From the NCBI GenBank assembly GCA_030590585.1, contig JAUUYD010000108.1:1-7462 (forward strand): 7,462 bases of DNA, in the 5' to 3' direction. Both the position numbers and the translations under genes were made by a program. The first letter of the stretch is position 1. Each line of letters starts with the position of its first letter. Below the pieces are notes generated by a model that saw nothing but the letters and a program-made list of their open reading frames with translations, had not been told where the DNA came from and did no database searches. The stretch is from Spirochaeta sp. (GTDB taxonomy: Bacteria; Spirochaetota; Spirochaetia; Spirochaetales_E; Spirochaetaceae_B). Of the stretch, positions 1-7,462 are shown in pieces.

Positions 1-766
1 CCTTTTTGAAAATGCCGGGGCTTTGGATAAGATTATCAGTTTCATCAATACAACTGAGAATCCTCCTGTTGAGCGCCTTCTGGTGCCGGATATGGCCCTT
101 ACCGCGGCAGAGTACTTCGCCGTCGATAAGAATGAGAAGGTACTGGTTCTACTTACAGATATGACTCTCTACGCTGATGCCCTGGCGATTGTATCCAACA
201 AGATGGACCAGATTCCATCCAAAGATTCGATGCCCGGTTCTCTTTACTCGGATCTGGCAAAGATATATGAAAAAGCCGTCCAATTCCCTGATGGTGGTTC
301 TATTACCATTATCGCTGTTACCACTCTCTCAGGCGGTGATATTACCCATGCAATACCGGATAACACGGGGTACATTACCGAGGGTCAGCTTTTTCTAAGA
401 ACCGATACCGATATTGGCAAGGTGATTGTTGACCCTTTTCGCTCTCTTTCACGGCTTAAACAGCAGGTTATTGGTAAAAAAACCAGAGATGACCATGGAC
501 AGGTGATGAATGCCGCAGTACGTCTTTACGCAGATGCCGCGGAAGCTAAAACGAAAAGGGACAATGGATTTGATCTTTCTGAGTATGATGAGAGAACCTT
601 GAAGTTTGCCAGGGAGTACTCTAACGATCTTCTGGCCATAGATGTGGATCTGAATATCGATGATATGCTGGATACCACCTGGAGGCTTCTTGAATCTCAC
701 TTTTCCCGGGATGAAGTAGGTATCAAAAAGTCCGTTACAGACAAATATTGGCAGGGCGGCGAATGA
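1..766 (+). CDS. atpB: V/A-type ATP synthase subunit B, C-terminal part (5' end outside window)
   Basis: Non-catalytic nucleotide-binding-fold subunit that alternates with subunit A in the soluble head of the rotary V/A-type ATPase. The frame is already open at base 2 (LFENAGALDK...), so the gene begins before the window. About 254 residues are visible, roughly the last 60% of a subunit normally near 430-470 residues. Family landmarks appear in order: NPPVERLLVPDMALTAAEY, LLTDMTLYADAL, MPGSLYSDLAKIYEKA, GSITIIAVTT, IPDNTGYITEGQ, the arginine-bearing SLSRLK, and TRDDHGQV. The lack of a Walker A loop in this part and the TGYITEGQ/SLSRL wording separate B from A. Stop TGA is at 764-766, inside a hairpin that precedes subunit D. 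First gene of the visible B-D-I-K run; subunit A should lie just upstream. The symbol follows V-type usage, not F-type atpB. Assignment very secure; Na+ or H+ coupling is not decided by this subunit. Confidence 0.96.
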   Translation, partial: LFENAGALDKIISFINTTENPPVERLLVPDMALTAAEYFAVDKNEKVLVLLTDMTLYADALAIVSNKMDQIPSKDSMPGSLYSDLAKIYEKAVQFPDGGSITIIAVTTLSGGDITHAIPDNTGYITEGQLFLRTDTDIGKVIVDPFRSLSRLKQQVIGKKTRDDHGQVMNAAVRLYADAAEAKTKRDNGFDLSEYDERTLKFAREYSNDLLAIDVDLNIDDMLDTTWRLLESHFSRDEVGIKKSVTDKYWQGGE

Positions 767-790
767 TGAATGGTGAGCATTTCATCATTC
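761..790 (+). promoter_or_regulatory. Perfect 10-bp intercistronic hairpin between atpB and atpD
   Basis: GAATGATGAA (761-770) and TTCATCATTC (781-790) are exact reverse complements around a 10-base loop. The stop codon of subunit B (764-766) lies inside the 5' arm, and the Shine-Dalgarno of subunit D (CGGAG, 791-795) starts right after the 3' arm. No T-run follows, so it is not a classical terminator. A role in mRNA processing, stability or translational tuning between B (three copies per enzyme) and D (one copy) is inferred. Confidence 0.6.
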
Positions 791-803
791 CGGAGTTTTC
801 ATC

Positions 804-1406
804 ATGGCTGTAAAATTTCAATACAACAAAGTCTCCATGCAGGCACTTCAGAAGGAATTGAAAATCCGGGAGACGGCACTGCCCACTCTTAAAAGTAAAG
901 AAGCATACCTGCGTGTCACTATTAAGAGGGAAAAGCATAAGCTTGATGAGCTGAAGGGCAGCCTGGAGATATTAAGGGCCGGGATTGGCGAATCCGAACA
1001 GCTGTTTTCAGAATTCCCGTTTACTTCAATTACCGTATCTTCGGTTGATTACGGCTCTGACAATATTGCCGGTATCTCCATCCCGGTACTTGGCGATATC
1101 GGTTTTACCGTGAGTATTCCTTCAGCGGTGCTGAACCCATCCTGGTTACCCTGGGGTGATAAAACCGTGAAGGGGCTTATCCGGGCTGTATCGGAAATTG
1201 ATGTTGCGGGAAAAAGAGTTGAACTGCTTGAATATGCCAGAAAAAAAACGACACAGAAGGTGAATCTATATGAAAAAGTTCAAATCCCGGAATTTTCTGA
1301 GGCTGTATTAAAGATTAAAAGATATCTGGAAGATGTGGAGAATCTTGAGAAGGCCGCTCAAAAGATTACCAAGGCCAAACAGACTGCTGCGGCGGAGGTT
1401 GCCTGA
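804..1406 (+). CDS. atpD: V/A-type ATP synthase subunit D (central rotor shaft)
   Basis: Subunit D is the central stalk that turns inside the A3B3 head and passes torque to the membrane ring. The 200-residue length is normal for the family. Both ends are highly charged and helical (about residues 5-60 and 135-195), as expected for the long antiparallel coiled coil. The middle (about 65-125, hydrophobic and Gly/Pro/Ser-rich, with VLGDIGFTVSIPSAVLNPSW) forms the short globular head. The N-terminal KFQYNKVSMQALQKELKIRE and the repeated TLKSKEAYLRVTIKREK pattern match the Lys-rich start of D subunits. The ATG at 804 has SD CGGAG 8 bases upstream, and the stop TGA overlaps the ATG of subunit I by one base. 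Position between B and I agrees with spirochaete and chlamydial operons. Sequence is weakly conserved in this family, so synteny adds much of the certainty. Confidence 0.92.
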   Translation: MAVKFQYNKVSMQALQKELKIRETALPTLKSKEAYLRVTIKREKHKLDELKGSLEILRAGIGESEQLFSEFPFTSITVSSVDYGSDNIAGISIPVLGDIGFTVSIPSAVLNPSWLPWGDKTVKGLIRAVSEIDVAGKRVELLEYARKKTTQKVNLYEKVQIPEFSEAVLKIKRYLEDVENLEKAAQKITKAKQTAAAEVA

Positions 1407-3268
1407 TGGTTGAAAAGATGAAGGTGATTCATATTCTTATGGCCTCTGCTGATTCAGAATCGGTACTGGCCGATCTTCAGGGTATTGGTGTTGTACATAT
1501 TGAAACCTCTTCAGTTATTGATGATTCGGGTGTCATGGATCTTGAAAGCCGGATTACGGCCCTTAAGAAGACTAACATTGAACTCAATAAATATTCCGAT
1601 GAGAAAAATGCGGACAATGAGGTGATAATTACTGATACCGCTCTCATACAGCAGCAAACCAGTGACTGTGTGAGTAAATTGGCCTATTATTCCGCCGAAT
1701 CGGATCGGCTGCAGAAAGATCTTGCTGCTCTAACACCGTGGGGCAGTTTTGACCCAGCCAAACTGTCTCTTTTAGAAGCTGAAGGTGTTTTCATAAGCTT
1801 TCATATACTATTGCAGAAGGCTTTTGAAGCTGCTGATTTTGCAGAAAGACATATTGAAATTATCCGGGAAGATAAATCGGGTGTTTATTTTGTTGAGATT
1901 CGTAAAACGAACACCGGTATAACAGTTGATACCCCTTTATTTCCGGCAGAACGCCTGGCTGAGATTGGATCTGAAGAGATTCAACGTCTTATCGAGGAAA
2001 CGGAAAATGCTGTTATGGGGCTTAAATCCAGTATGAGAGCCCTGTCATACAGCTGTTCTGCCCTTGAACAGGAAATCATTACATTGGAATCTGCTTTGGA
2101 ACGGCGTATTGCTGAGCTGTCTCTTAATCATGAAGCTGATGGAGAGGTAATGTGTTTGACGGGATATTTCCCTGTCTCTCTTCTTTCCGAAATTGATCAA
2201 TTTATTGATCAAAGAAATATTCTGCCTCTTGTTATTGATTCTGAGCAACCGGGAGAGACTCCTGTAAAATTGAAGAACGGACCGGTTGCGCGGCTTTTTG
2301 AACCGATCACAAAGATATTCGGGCTTCCTCAATACATGGAAATCGATACAACACCATTTTTTGCACCATTTTTTGCCTTTTTCTTCGGCTTTTGTCTGGC
2401 AGATGTTGGTTATGGTCTCATTGTGACACTATCCGCATTAGCAGGCTTCTTTTTATTAAAAAAGAAAGCATTGAAATCACTGGCAGCTTTGGGGTTTATC
2501 CTGGGACTGATGACGGTTGTTGGCGGTTTGTTTCTCAATACATTATTTGGAATGAAAATTGACGGCCTCCCGAATCTCCCTGATGGTGCTGCTTCATTTT
2601 TACTTTTTCGTGATATCAACGACGCCATGACATTTTCCCTTCTTCTGGGGGTAGTGCAGATTATCCTCGGATTCACGATGCAGGTGATTAATAAATGGCG
2701 TCAAAAGGGCTTTCCGGCATCCCTGCAGCCTGTGGGAACCCTTTTTCTCATCGTAGGTGTTGCGATTTGGGCTGTGGGAAATATGGGGCCAGTTTTTGCC
2801 GTCGGTCCTATCCCGATCGGTACATGGATTGCATTAATTGGAAACACTGCTGTCGTAGGAATGAGTTCAGCCGGGCTGGGTATTCTATTGATTCTGTTTT
2901 TTAATAATCCTGAGAAGAAAATATGGATTCGTCCCCTGCTGGGTTTATGGGAGATGTACGGAATTGCTTCGGGAATCCCCGGAGATATACTTTCTTATAT
3001 CAGGCTCTTTGCCCTCTCTCTTGCCGGGGGACTGCTCGGCGGAGCAATCAATCTTATCGCCGTGATGATTCGCGGTGATAACCCCGGGATATTTTCCTGG
3101 TTCTTCATGCTGCTGGTTCTTATCGGCGGGCATTTTATTAATTTTGCACTGGCGGCCCTCGGGGCCTTTGTTCATCCCCTGCGACTCACTTTTGTGGAGT
3201 TCTACAAAGCAGTCGGGTTCAGCGGAGGGGGGAAAGCGTATAAACCTTATGGAGGGAAAATAACGTGA
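1406..3268 (+). CDS. atpI: V/A-type ATP synthase subunit I (membrane stator, a-subunit homologue)
   Basis: Subunit I forms the two half-channels that lead ions to and from the rotor ring, and it anchors the peripheral stalks. The 620 residues split into a soluble N-terminal half (about 1-305, with coiled-coil stretches near 45-75, 95-112 and 190-235) and a membrane half (about 315-610) with roughly seven or eight hydrophobic helices. The entry to the membrane part has the family signature GLPQYMEIDTTPFFAPFF followed by CLADVGYGL (D333-G337). Arg533 in LSYIRLFALSLAGG corresponds to the essential arginine of yeast Vph1 (R735), and Arg593 in HPLRLTFVEFYKAVGF to its partner R799. The ATG at 1406 overlaps the TGA of D (TGATG), with GGAGG at 1394-1398 as ribosome site. 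Its stop overlaps the GTG of subunit K. This translational coupling supports a single transcript. Confidence 0.96.
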   Translation: MVEKMKVIHILMASADSESVLADLQGIGVVHIETSSVIDDSGVMDLESRITALKKTNIELNKYSDEKNADNEVIITDTALIQQQTSDCVSKLAYYSAESDRLQKDLAALTPWGSFDPAKLSLLEAEGVFISFHILLQKAFEAADFAERHIEIIREDKSGVYFVEIRKTNTGITVDTPLFPAERLAEIGSEEIQRLIEETENAVMGLKSSMRALSYSCSALEQEIITLESALERRIAELSLNHEADGEVMCLTGYFPVSLLSEIDQFIDQRNILPLVIDSEQPGETPVKLKNGPVARLFEPITKIFGLPQYMEIDTTPFFAPFFAFFFGFCLADVGYGLIVTLSALAGFFLLKKKALKSLAALGFILGLMTVVGGLFLNTLFGMKIDGLPNLPDGAASFLLFRDINDAMTFSLLLGVVQIILGFTMQVINKWRQKGFPASLQPVGTLFLIVGVAIWAVGNMGPVFAVGPIPIGTWIALIGNTAVVGMSSAGLGILLILFFNNPEKKIWIRPLLGLWEMYGIASGIPGDILSYIRLFALSLAGGLLGGAINLIAVMIRGDNPGIFSWFFMLLVLIGGHFINFALAALGAFVHPLRLTFVEFYKAVGFSGGGKAYKPYGGKIT

Positions 3269-3714
3269 ATATTGCAGTAATTTTAGCCGGTATCGGCTTG
3301 GGTCTGATGGTAGGCCTCTCTGGAACGGGATCGGCAATTGGTCTGGTTATCGGCGGTACCAGCGCCATCGGCGCCATGAAAAAGAAGCCTGAGGTGTTTG
3401 GTTCTTCTCTGGTTCTTTCAGCTTTACCGGCAACTCAGGGATTGTATGGATTTGTGTGTTTCATCCTCTTTTCCGGATTCGTAACTCCTGAAATGAGCGT
3501 ATTCCAGGGTGCCATGACCCTGGGCGCGGGAATTGCAATGGGACTGGCTGCATTATTCTCGGCTATACAGCAGGGTAAAGTCTGTGCCGCGGGAATCTCA
3601 GCGATGGGCAGCGGGCATGATGTGTTCGGAAACACCTTTATTCTGGCTGTTTTTCCTGAGTTTTATGCAATTCTGGCATTGGTTGTCTCAATTCTTATAA
3701 CAGGATTGATGTAA
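3265..3714 (+). CDS. atpK: V/A-type ATP synthase subunit K (rotor ring proteolipid, likely Na+-binding)
   Basis: Copies of this 149-residue proteolipid form the membrane rotor ring. There are four hydrophobic helices as two related hairpins (about 3-33, 47-71, 77-100, 123-147), with a GLSGTGSAIG glycine motif in the first. Only the last helix carries the ion carboxylate, Glu132 (FPEFYAIL). The other residues that bind Na+ in Enterococcus hirae NtpK (L61, T64, Q65, Q110, E139, with Y68 hydrogen-bonding) all have counterparts at a constant offset of seven: L54, T57, Q58, Q103, E132 and Y61 (LPATQGLYGF and AIQQGK). This predicts Na+ coupling, though it is an inference. The GTG start overlaps the stop of subunit I (GTGA) and follows a strong GGAGGG at 3251-3256. 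It is the last gene of the operon, followed by a terminator. Confidence 0.96.
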   Translation: MNIAVILAGIGLGLMVGLSGTGSAIGLVIGGTSAIGAMKKKPEVFGSSLVLSALPATQGLYGFVCFILFSGFVTPEMSVFQGAMTLGAGIAMGLAALFSAIQQGKVCAAGISAMGSGHDVFGNTFILAVFPEFYAILALVVSILITGLM

Positions 3715-5412: not shown

Positions 5413-6237
5413 TTGTATTTGGGATCCATAAATAATCAGTTAAACATTAACAGCCCGGGGAAATTACTCCTTTTATCGGCAAGCTGGATAATCTTGTTAT
5501 TATCCGCTTGCGCCGGCGGGCCCGATGCAAGCTATAAGATCAGGGAAATTGATTCTGGTTTGGAGATACTTACCGGACGGAGTGAAGAGGGCAGAGTACT
5601 TTGGATGGCGGTTCGTTCAGATTCTGCCGAGCTTTCAATCTCTCCTGCATTACTCCCGGACAGTTTGAATGACGTGGAAGTTCTCTCCCGTCATGCTGCT
5701 GATCATTTTATCAACCCTGCTGTAATGGCGGCTCTTACAGCATCTCCCCACAACCCGATACGTTTTCTCTCCGGGCTTCCACAGGACGTTAGAGGTTATT
5801 ACCGCGTTGACGGAGTGACTTACTCAAAACCCGATGGCGTTCACGATGCAGCTGCTGTATCTCCTGATGGAAGCCCGGGTATCCTGTCTCCCGAAGATCA
5901 GGAAAAATGGAGCGGCGACTCTGCAGGAGGCTTCTATGCCATTCTGATTGACGGTACTCCAGTGTGTCCTGTTTCAGTTAGAGACACGGTCAGCGCGGCA
6001 GGGTGGTCATCAGACGGTTCAATACTTATTCTTATGGTTATCAAAGGAAGGAATGGACGGGGTTACAGTTATGAAGAGGCCGGAGCAGTTTTGAAATCTT
6101 TGGGAGCCCGAAACGGCATTGCCATGGATGGAGGAGGTTCTGCCCGCCTTGTCTGGAGAGAGGATGGTAATTTGATCAGTTTTCCCGCCGCCCTTTTTTT
6201 CAGAGCCGTACCGAACCATTTATTGCTACTTAAATGA
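5413..6237 (+). CDS. Putative lipoprotein with phosphodiester glycosidase (NAGPA-type) domain
   Basis: The domain resembles the family named after N-acetylglucosamine-1-phosphodiester alpha-N-acetylglucosaminidase. Bacterial members are thought to cleave sugar phosphodiesters in cell-surface or exported polymers; the substrate here is unknown. The 274 residues start with a hydrophobic segment (18-32) ending in LLSAC, a lipobox with Cys33, so export and lipid anchoring are likely, though the n-region has only one Lys. Family landmarks: GGFYAILIDGTPV, Arg190 in VRDTVSAAGW, SDGSILILMVIKGRNGRG (to about 217), YSYEEAGAVLKSLGARNGIAMDGGGSARLVW with D239-S243 as the DGGGS signature. Start choice: no in-frame ATG or GTG is nearby. 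TTG at 5413 lies four bases after AAAGGA (5403-5408) and TTG at 5419 lies ten bases after it, so the second is equally possible. Twenty-six bases separate it from the next gene, suggesting co-transcription. Confidence 0.88.
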   Translation: MYLGSINNQLNINSPGKLLLLSASWIILLLSACAGGPDASYKIREIDSGLEILTGRSEEGRVLWMAVRSDSAELSISPALLPDSLNDVEVLSRHAADHFINPAVMAALTASPHNPIRFLSGLPQDVRGYYRVDGVTYSKPDGVHDAAAVSPDGSPGILSPEDQEKWSGDSAGGFYAILIDGTPVCPVSVRDTVSAAGWSSDGSILILMVIKGRNGRGYSYEEAGAVLKSLGARNGIAMDGGGSARLVWREDGNLISFPAALFFRAVPNHLLLLK

Positions 6238-6263: not shown

Positions 6264-7462
6264 ATGCCGCGAAAGTCTGAGATTCTGATTCATACCGCTT
6301 TATTCAGTGAAGCAAAACCGATTATTTCCCATTTCGGTCTCAGGCAGTATGAGACTCAGCCCTTCAAAATATTCCGCGGGGTTAATATCATCCTGCTGGT
6401 TTCCGGAGTGGGTGAAGAGAAATGCCGTGCAGCTTTAAATCATCTTTTTTGCATCACAGGACCGGGCAGAATTAAAAAGGCGATGAATATCGGGATGGCC
6501 GGGTGCAGTGATTCATCAGTCCCGATAGGTTCAGTGTTCTGTACTCACGGGAAGATTTCCGGGATCTCCGGTATGTCATTAAAAACCTCCGATACACCGC
6601 TAACTCACATGGATACAGACTTCCCCTGCCTGGCTGACATGGAAGGAAAGTATTTTCTTGAAATACTGAAAACTCATATCCCCTTAAACAATATCTTTAT
6701 ATTCAAGGTGGTATCTGATTATCTGGATGATTCCATAAGAAAGTCGGCAGATATTTACCGACTGATAGATGATTCGATACCGCAGTGGGAGTCGCTGCTT
6801 GATGACTACCCGGAAAAAATGGAATCGCTTATCAGACAGACAGCATTCGAAAATCTTGGCAATCCGGACCGGGAAGCAATACGACGATCAGCACTTGCTT
6901 ATCGATTCAGTCATCAGGAACTCAAACAGATTATTGAAATGTTCCTGGATTTCTCTATGTGGGGTGAGGGTGCTGTCAGCGAAGTTTTGAATCAGGAATT
7001 CAGCTCCGGGAAGGCAGCTTTCGGGGCAGTGAAAAAAAAATGGGAAGAGCTGAAAAACAAACCAAAATCCTATAATCATTTCAAGGGACAGTCTGATATT
7101 TCAAAGAGCGCTAAGAAACCAATTTCCAATATTTCCAGAGCAGCACCCGGATTCGGACGTTGTCCGGTGGCATCAGAGCGAACCCGCTGCTGCAATCTGC
7201 TTACCCTGGATGCGGTTGAGGGCTGTGGTTTTGACTGCAGCTATTGTTCAATACGGTACTTCTACGATGGGGAGTCCATTGGAATAGACGAAGGTTTTAT
7301 TGAGAAACTTAAAAACATTGAGATTGACCCTCAGCGCAGCTATCACATCGGTACCGGTCAGTCCTCGGACTCTCTAATGTGGGGTAATAAAGCAGGCCTT
7401 CTTGATGCCGTACTTGATTTTGCAGCTGAACATCCCAATGTCATTCTTGAGTTGAAAACTAA
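6264..7462 (+). CDS. Nucleosidase/phosphorylase domain fused to SPL-like radical SAM domain (3' end outside window)
   Basis: The frame runs from ATG 6264 to the window end without a stop, giving 399 residues so far. GAGGG at 6252-6256 is a well-spaced ribosome site. Domain 1 (about 1-160) has the nucleoside phosphorylase/MTA-SAH nucleosidase layout: ALFSEAKPI with E16, LLVSGVGEEKCRAAL (44-58), NIGMAGC (75-81), DMEGKYF with E127, and KVVSDYLDDS with D152. These match the acid, ribose-binding and purine-protonating positions of MTAN. A charged, mostly helical linker follows (about 160-290). Domain 2 (about 295 onward) carries C321-x3-C325-x2-C328 in EGCGFDCSYCSIRYFY, the radical-SAM 4Fe-4S motif, then IGTGQSSDSL and, at the window edge, ILELKT, both reminiscent of spore photoproduct lyase (SPL) relatives. 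Cytoplasmic. Function is inferred: modification or repair chemistry with removal of 5'-deoxyadenosine. The true substrate is unknown. Confidence 0.85.
   Translation, partial: MPRKSEILIHTALFSEAKPIISHFGLRQYETQPFKIFRGVNIILLVSGVGEEKCRAALNHLFCITGPGRIKKAMNIGMAGCSDSSVPIGSVFCTHGKISGISGMSLKTSDTPLTHMDTDFPCLADMEGKYFLEILKTHIPLNNIFIFKVVSDYLDDSIRKSADIYRLIDDSIPQWESLLDDYPEKMESLIRQTAFENLGNPDREAIRRSALAYRFSHQELKQIIEMFLDFSMWGEGAVSEVLNQEFSSGKAAFGAVKKKWEELKNKPKSYNHFKGQSDISKSAKKPISNISRAAPGFGRCPVASERTRCCNLLTLDAVEGCGFDCSYCSIRYFYDGESIGIDEGFIEKLKNIEIDPQRSYHIGTGQSSDSLMWGNKAGLLDAVLDFAAEHPNVILELKT

Follow-up and report, generated by a model that had tools for sequence, protein, structure and literature searches.

A spirochaetal gene joining a nucleosidase domain to a spore photoproduct lyase-like radical SAM domain, with a possible role in SAM-derived pentose transfer

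Introduction

The window analysed here, a stretch of 7,462 nucleotides from a Spirochaeta sp. assembly (GCA_030590585.1, contig JAUUYD010000108.1), ends inside a gene whose single open frame appears to hold two enzymes, a nucleosidase and a radical SAM protein. Why should a radical SAM enzyme carry a nucleosidase of its own? The original prediction, made from the sequence alone, was that the first domain clears the 5'-deoxyadenosine released by the second, giving a self-relieving radical enzyme; a second idea was that domain 1 acts on a substrate or product of domain 2. In this study, we ask the following: (i) whether the two domains and their coupling are real; and (ii) which chemistry the pair, together with a third gene that often accompanies it, may carry out.

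Results and discussion

The fused gene and its domains

The ATG-started frame encodes 399 amino acids and is free of stop codons through the end of the window (Table 1). On the nucleosidase side it contains E16, SGVG (47-50), NIGMAG (75-80), DMEG (125-128) and SD (151-152), followed by C-x3-C-x2-C, which confirms the predicted succession of MTAN-like and radical SAM motifs. We take E16 to be the counterpart of Glu12 of E. coli MTAN, and D125-M126-E127 and the Asp of S151-D152 presumably bind ribose and purine, respectively. In an alignment of 25 fusions (A1), D130-M131-E132, K153 and D157 (P0001 numbers) are invariant, and E16 is kept in at least 90% of the rows, those of P0013 and P0077 beginning downstream of it.

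Table 1 Features of the fused gene, with positions in the window
Feature	Position	Strand	Remarks
Nucleosidase / SPL-like radical SAM fusion ORF	6264..7462	+	3' end beyond window; relatives mostly 595-654 aa
Nucleosidase domain, residues 1-180, MTAN/CT263-like, phosphorylase superfamily	6264..6803	+	
E16 codon, predicted catalytic Glu	6309..6311	+	Invariant in 21/21 nucleosidases (alignment A3)
D125-M126-E127, predicted ribose-binding motif	6636..6644	+	D and E invariant 21/21; aligned to LVDMEG of CT263
S151-D152, predicted purine-binding Asp	6714..6719	+	Invariant 21/21; aligned to KVSSDY of CT263
Helical N-terminal part of SPL-like protein, common to unfused ~415-aa relatives	6810..7133	+	Unfused P0029 begins about here; helices in P0001 model
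Radical SAM core, SPL-like, cut by window end	7134..7462	+	
Upstream invariant cysteines, CPVASERTRCC, near site of CKPSA of SPL	7161..7193	+	C305, C314, C315 (P0001 numbers) invariant 25/25
C321-x3-C325-x2-C328, predicted 4Fe-4S/SAM-binding motif	7224..7247	+	Three Cys invariant in 25/25 fused proteins

Motifs alone are insufficient as proof because the truncated frame scores below the Pfam cut-offs. The expected PF01048 hit was sub-threshold in the window frame (E 0.21, 11.4 bits, cut-off 25.1), as was PF04055 (E 0.13); PF20903 was absent from its Pfam matches, and an NCBIfam search of the same frame returned weak matches only. The expectation was borne out in full-length relatives: P0001 (603 aa, 66% identical) exceeds the cut-offs of both PF01048 (27.0 vs 25.1 bits) and the SPL model PF20903 (56.9 vs 27), so that both domain assignments were right. 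PF01048 was passed by three of the eight fusion relatives scanned (P0001, P0016 with 29.6 and P0023 with 26.0 bits); the other five fell below it (P0014 19.3, P0026 17.2) or had no listed match (P0025, P0027 and P0077). PF04055 reached 12.8-20.7 bits, against a gathering score of 29.5, in the fused relatives where it was listed; this shortfall is usual for divergent radical SAM members, and the fold comparison decides. The predicted fold matches a solved radical SAM protein, and with C-x3-C-x2-C it places the second domain in that superfamily. Query coverage is 80% or more in 27 of 120 listed homologues (of 3462 at E <= 1e-3), and the remainder reach about half of it and lack the first domain; sources that name these SPL-like homologues call them spore photoproduct lyase or DNA photolyase.

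The predicted structure of the first domain has the fold of the phosphorylase superfamily PF01048, and its nearest fold is CT263, an MTAN whose structures contain adenine and MTA. CT263 is said to have been assigned to the futalosine pathway (by Barta, in 2014). The present domain differs from the CT263, MTAN and futalosine hydrolase members of PF01048 in its size of about 180 aa, its identity of 17-21% and its tie to a radical SAM enzyme, and no MTAN or futalosine hydrolase model was above cut-off in the proteins scanned. The Campylobacterota partner of locus L008 scored 30.2 bits against the 169 of the MTA/SAH nucleosidase equivalog, and six listed partners scored 21-39 bits against the 124.7 of the futalosine hydrolase model TIGR03664; for P0001, TIGR03664 was absent and no MTAN model stood among the NCBIfam matches at E <= 0.01.

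A sequencing join of two genes, which would have undone the prediction, is very unlikely, as six loci from other assemblies (L001-L004, L007 and L213) show the same architecture.

Departure of the radical SAM domain from genuine spore photoproduct lyase

In SPL, a Cys and two Tyr residues (C141, Y99 and Y97 of B. subtilis) return the radical and SAM is regenerated, whereas the C. acetobutylicum enzyme uses a different Cys, Cys74, as hydrogen donor, as a section of PMC5368176 describes. The fused type retains only Tyr96 of this relay (Cys140, Tyr96 and Tyr98 in Geobacillus numbers). When aligned to SPL, all 66 distinct proteins of the fused/Campylobacterota type have Gln at position 140 (GQSSD) and either Ser (58) or Ala (8) at position 98, where 12/12 genuine Bacillota SPLs have Tyr and a third SPL-like type has Tyr or Phe. 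The 12 genuine SPLs likewise lack Cys140, hence the Cys alone is not decisive. With both residues replaced in 66/66 proteins, the recycling path appears broken, and the loss of Tyr98 suggests that SAM is consumed rather than recycled. By analogy with Cys74 of C. acetobutylicum, hydrogen could come from the invariant CC pair ahead of the cluster.

The fused protein resembles SplB (4fhc, TIGR04070, PF20903) in its predicted fold over 272 aligned residues, in C-x3-C-x2-C and in Tyr96. It differs in the residues at positions 140 and 98, in its extra invariant cysteines, in a score far below the TIGR04070 equivalog (67.8 vs 400 bits for P0001) and in being joined to or paired with a nucleosidase and often a short-chain dehydrogenase (SDR). 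Identity as a genuine SPL was rejected on the TIGR04070 score and the replaced residues, the latter a feature that the original prediction had not seen.

The third SPL-like type comprises proteins of about 300-373 aa with an SY[EDL] motif where SPL has its Cys140 region (L019, L021, L022, L083-L085 and L103-L119), and its partner nucleosidase often has a C-terminal extension. A further type was observed in Spirochaetota (L077-L081; CPG, CC and GTGE.TDS motifs; frames of 364-501 aa), with neither nucleosidase nor SDR nearby in the five loci inspected; about 90 of the 139 matched Spirochaetota genomes score in its E range of 1e-45 to 1e-68.

Distribution of the nucleosidase and radical SAM pair

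The window protein as query gave no confirmed match in a scan of genome contigs, and an alignment of the first domain gave 22 loci. The genes are fused in L001-L004 and L007, all from Spirochaeta or Spirochaetaceae. In 10/10 Campylobacterota loci (L005, L006 and L008-L015) the nucleosidase gene comes first and overlaps the SPL-like gene, and in the Bacillota loci L019, L021 and L022 a diverged nucleosidase overlaps an SPL-like gene of the third type. The nucleosidases of L016, L017, L018 and L020 had no SPL-like gene found alongside. Genome censuses were then labelled by phylum after individual loci (L008 for Campylobacterota, L003 for Spirochaetota and L019 for Bacillota); all are raw genome counts that ignore kinship.

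Of 298 Campylobacterota genomes, 60 carry an SPL-like gene (fused type in 51, third type in 9), 62 carry the nucleosidase at E <= 1e-11 and 59 carry both. The nucleosidase profile (A6) was built from 15 sequences, of which 14 have an SPL-like partner fused or adjacent, and it may favour such copies. The cut-off dropped 10/72 genomes with weaker matches (1e-8 to 1e-6), nine of which span only about columns 3-96 and resemble ordinary MTANs. The tenth, G224, is real: it is the 60th SPL-like genome, with a diverged nucleosidase in a 393-aa frame upstream. This frame (L082, 3952-5133(-)) is about twice the usual nucleosidase length. In 20 of the 59 pairs the nucleosidase gene precedes its partner on the same strand at a distance of up to 300 bp, and in 13 more the two genes are within 10 kb of each other, where adjacency was taken between match ends and the truly overlapping third-type pairs L083-L086 were thus scored as <10 kb. 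The other 26 are more than 10 kb apart or on separate contigs, and the co-occurrence is therefore not mere linkage. In the count, G304, G053 and G223 (a fragment) had the nucleosidase only; a PF20903 search of the three found an SPL-like gene in G053 and none in G304 and G223. These two and G009, in which a nucleosidase also occurs without an SPL-like gene having been found, may be incomplete genomes.

The pattern is looser in Spirochaetota (296 genomes), where the fused-type SPL-like domain was found at E < 1e-100 in 16 genomes and the nucleosidase in two of these (G002 and G563); it is absent in 14, one of which, G566, has a weak match of 2.6e-7, and this speaks against strict dependence. 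Nine genomes besides the fused G002 have a nucleosidase match at E <= 3e-22 extending past column 166 (frames of about 270-305 aa), and all nine have a third-type SPL-like match (a fragment in G494), adjacent in L045 and L047. G513 and G440 hold a third-type gene with the nucleosidase match absent. The loci L038-L044 have nucleosidases of the same family (271-285 aa) with the SPL-like match elsewhere in the genome, and a gene that by eye resembles gpsA stands beside the nucleosidase in six of the seven, L041 being the exception.

Among 299 Bacillota genomes, 17 have the nucleosidase at E <= 1e-35, and in 14 of them it lies beside a third-type SPL-like gene; in the other three, a PF20903 gene (about 330-347 aa) is located elsewhere and scores below SPL. 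Genuine SPL above the TIGR04070 cut-off occurs in 127/299 Bacillota genomes, including 10 of the 17 with the nucleosidase, which makes the pair a separate system. No nucleosidase was found within flanks of about 1.5 kb at 12 genuine-SPL loci.

Fusion, gene overlap and co-occurrence together strongly support the coupling of the two domains, which had been offered as inference. An ordinary enzyme may be present as well: a canonical MTA/SAH nucleosidase above NCBIfam cut-offs was found in G006 and G007, which have the pair, and in G009, which has the nucleosidase only. Of 13 genomes searched, 12 have a PF01048 match of 1e-40 or better, and the pair-bearing G005 draft has none better than 2e-7.

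A short-chain dehydrogenase as third gene

Clustering of the neighbours at 63 loci gave one recurring family beyond the pair, an SDR at 21 loci, the next family occurring at 7. This third partner had escaped the original prediction. In all four fused loci with sequence at that point (L002, L003, L007 and L213), the SDR gene overlaps the end of the fusion, and it is therefore expected just beyond the end of the window, as in L002 and L003. It follows the nucleosidase and SPL-like gene in L009, L014, L015, L019, L021, L022, L083-L085, L145, L151, L155-L158 and L196, and follows the nucleosidase, with the SPL-like gene elsewhere, in L101, L102, L162, L168, L177, L186 and L189. The SDR of L003 matches PF00106 at 1.5e-33, and the catalytic residues N92, S119, Y132 and K136 are invariant in 23/23 sequences.

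At a threshold of E <= 1e-70 (other SDRs reach 1.5e-40 at best), the family is present in 48/60 Campylobacterota genomes with an SPL-like gene and in 1/98 controls without one (98 searched of 118 planned). The single control, G176, may be an incomplete genome. For 21 of the 49 SDR genes at threshold the distance to a partner, again taken between match ends, is at most 300 bp, and for 36 it is at most 10 kb; in G052 the nucleosidase, SPL-like gene and SDR all fall within about 7 kb. The distribution is patchy elsewhere. In the flanks of the Bacillota census the SDR was seen at 2/17 loci, and it occurs in six of the nine Spirochaetota genomes with nucleosidase and third-type gene, in one case at 9.5e-65. 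The surroundings (about 2 kb) of the 14 Spirochaetota SPL-like genes that have no nucleosidase (L063-L076) yielded no SDR of this family. Among the five fused-gene genomes, no family SDR was found in the drafts G001 and G003, whose contigs (L001 and L004) end in or just past the fused gene. In a Nautilia genome paper (PMC2628731), the part concerned reads a COG1533 gene as DNA repair, and the legend of its neighbourhood figure names a short-chain dehydrogenase.

Phylogeny of the SPL-like proteins

A FastTree phylogeny built from 118 SPL-like proteins places the third type in a single clade (support 1.0), and almost all of its members have the nucleosidase in their locus or genome. A second clade (support 1.0) unites a Spirochaetota type without nucleosidase and the fused/Campylobacterota type, 12 basal Spirochaetota members of which have no nucleosidase. 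On this distribution, either there were two separate recruitments of the nucleosidase or it has been lost repeatedly. The fused proteins cluster (support 0.81) with L074, which has no first domain, and the fusion probably arose once.

Possible function of the module

We read the gene as a bifunctional enzyme, the fused version of a nucleosidase-radical SAM pair that elsewhere occupies two genes and is often joined by an SDR, with the two domains acting in sequence; a probability of about 0.42 is given to this reading. The SPL-like domain would cleave SAM, and the 5'-deoxyadenosyl radical would add to an acceptor, with no recycling to SAM as in SPL. The MTAN/CT263-like domain would then strip adenine from the adenosylated product and the SDR would reduce the freed sugar aldehyde, so that a SAM-derived pentose unit would be placed on the acceptor, in the manner of HpnH/HpnG in hopanoids and MqnE/MqnB in the futalosine pathway. 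What we observe is the architecture, the predicted folds, the conservation of residues and the genetic coupling; the acceptor and each step of the chemistry are inferred. The nucleosidase is likely to act on a 5'-deoxyadenosyl product made by its partner, whether that product is free or transferred.

Sequential transfer draws on the fact that in Campylobacterota one radical SAM enzyme is co-inherited with a nucleosidase of its own, also where the genes are unlinked and despite an ordinary MTAN, which suggests an intermediate of the radical enzyme itself; since G006, G007 and G009 have a canonical MTAN, a second nucleosidase should be needless for general clean-up. An SDR would also suit the last step of a sequence like that of HpnH/HpnG. 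Transfer is further favoured by the broken recycling path of SPL and by CT263 as the nearest fold. Several observations count against transfer: SPL chemistry is hydrogen abstraction and not addition; 14/16 Spirochaetota genomes with this SPL-like type have no nucleosidase; the SDR is patchy (it is lacking in 12/60 Campylobacterota genomes and was not seen at most Bacillota loci or in the drafts G001 and G003); the invariant CC pair could supply hydrogen; and in G304, G223 and G009 the nucleosidase was found without an SPL-like gene.

The close rival is the originally proposed self-relief, which we consider possible and somewhat doubtful: each turnover would release free 5'-deoxyadenosine, the fused nucleosidase would cleave it and the SDR would turn toxic 5-deoxyribose into 5-deoxyribitol. 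According to a passage of PMC6079011, 5'-deoxyadenosine acts as an inhibitor of radical SAM enzymes, and rats reduce its sugar to 5-deoxyribitol. The loss of Tyr98 and Cys140, with SAM probably consumed, agrees with self-relief, and two unlike SPL-like types that share the same kind of nucleosidase and the SDR suggest a common SAM-derived product. Self-relief also explains more easily the 14/16 Spirochaetota genomes that have the radical enzyme without the nucleosidase, and it gains from the G005 draft, whose pair stands without a strong PF01048 match. The canonical MTAN of G006, G007 and G009 should, however, already perform this task. Other radical SAM enzymes of these cells would equally need 5'-deoxyadenosine to be removed, yet in Campylobacterota the nucleosidase keeps to a single family of radical enzymes, unlinked genes included. 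The original interpretation is thus partly supported: the domains and their coupling stand, these points weigh against self-relief as a full account, and the second idea, in which domain 1 acts on what domain 2 uses or makes, fits at least as well.

It is unlikely that a single free nucleoside or modified base is processed successively by the two domains in salvage or biosynthesis, with the nucleosidase before or after the radical step and not on a SAM-derived adenosyl group. The phosphorylase superfamily does include nucleosidases and phosphorylases of other nucleosides, and one partner is weakly similar by profile to HpnG, futalosine hydrolase and DeoD; against this, the residues conserved in 21/21 nucleosidases align with motifs of CT263, the MTAN solved with adenine and MTA, and no other nucleoside gene recurs nearby, the most frequent family beyond pair and SDR reaching 7/63 loci.

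An SPL-like lyase for DNA repair that carries an additional domain for clean-up is improbable: this reading could appeal to the predicted SPL fold, to the repair reading of COG1533 genes in Nautilia and to the place given to COG1533 in the Bacteroidetes SOS network in a portion of PMC8565304, but TIGR04070 is far out of reach, Cys140 and Tyr98 are absent, the pair coexists with genuine SPL in 10/17 Bacillota genomes and none of the 12 genuine-SPL loci has a nucleosidase within about 1.5 kb of flank. An anti-phage system was rejected, as five proteins gave no PADLOC-DB match.

Comparison with known systems

For HpnH/HpnG, a part of PMC12583986 describes how the 5'-deoxyadenosyl radical adds to diploptene and adenine is removed to give ribosylhopane, which is then converted to bacteriohopanetetrol by an enzyme not yet established. 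The proposed sequence is alike in that a radical SAM enzyme is followed by an adenine-removing superfamily member and a further conversion, and unlike in that HpnH and HpnG are separate proteins with a known lipid acceptor; the likeness is one of mechanism only. HpnH belongs to a different radical SAM family from the fused protein. MqnE/MqnB also couples radical SAM adenosylation to subsequent adenine removal; here, by contrast, the radical SAM part resembles SPL, and menaquinone genes are not among the recurring neighbours of the pair.

Spirochaetota relatives of the nucleosidase domain in L046, L049 and L050 (200-212 aa) lie directly behind PF02621 menaquinone genes and are probably the futalosine-pathway nucleosidase there, with L046 scoring 43.8 bits, below the TIGR03664 cut-off of 124.7. 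A menaquinone nucleosidase identity for the fused domain was rejected, as the PF02621-linked Spirochaetota relatives of 200-220 aa look like another branch (three confirmed).

In the disposal and salvage of 5'-deoxyadenosine (MTAN, drdI/drdA pathway), a nucleosidase disposes of the radical SAM by-product, as an excerpt of PMC6079011 sets out. Such disposal serves radical SAM enzymes in general, whereas the nucleosidase here goes with one family.

No published description of the SPL-like/nucleosidase pair or fusion was found among the papers listed in searches of the open-access literature. The two SPL-like branches probably do something other than SPL repair and likely consume SAM, with a partner nucleosidase and often a reductase. 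Tentatively, and with less than even odds, they may represent another natural way of transferring a SAM-derived pentose, the third after MqnE/MqnB and HpnH/HpnG, in which an SPL-like adenosyl transferase with its own nucleosidase and reductase would give a 5-deoxyribosyl or ribityl product in Campylobacterota, Spirochaetota and Bacillota. The module makes the function of these branches testable through an adenosylated compound that would pile up without the nucleosidase. If the by-product model were true, the fusion would represent a radical SAM enzyme that itself disposes of its inhibitor, useful in vitro where 5'-deoxyadenosine limits turnover.

Neighbourhood of the gene in the window

Up to the fusion, six genes of the window recur with unchanged order in L003, and L001 and L002 share the three nearest upstream of it. 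L001 is the closest of these three loci and ends inside the fusion gene. The gene at 5413-6237, directly upstream, has a relative at the same place in L001-L003; by eye it resembles a phosphodiester glycosidase. It was rejected as a partner, having no match in L004 or L213; the flank of L007 reaches only 0.8 kb upstream. Positions 2-3714 hold a putative V/A-type ATPase-like operon, which is followed on the other strand by genes resembling those for an RRM protein and a Sua5/YciO-like protein.
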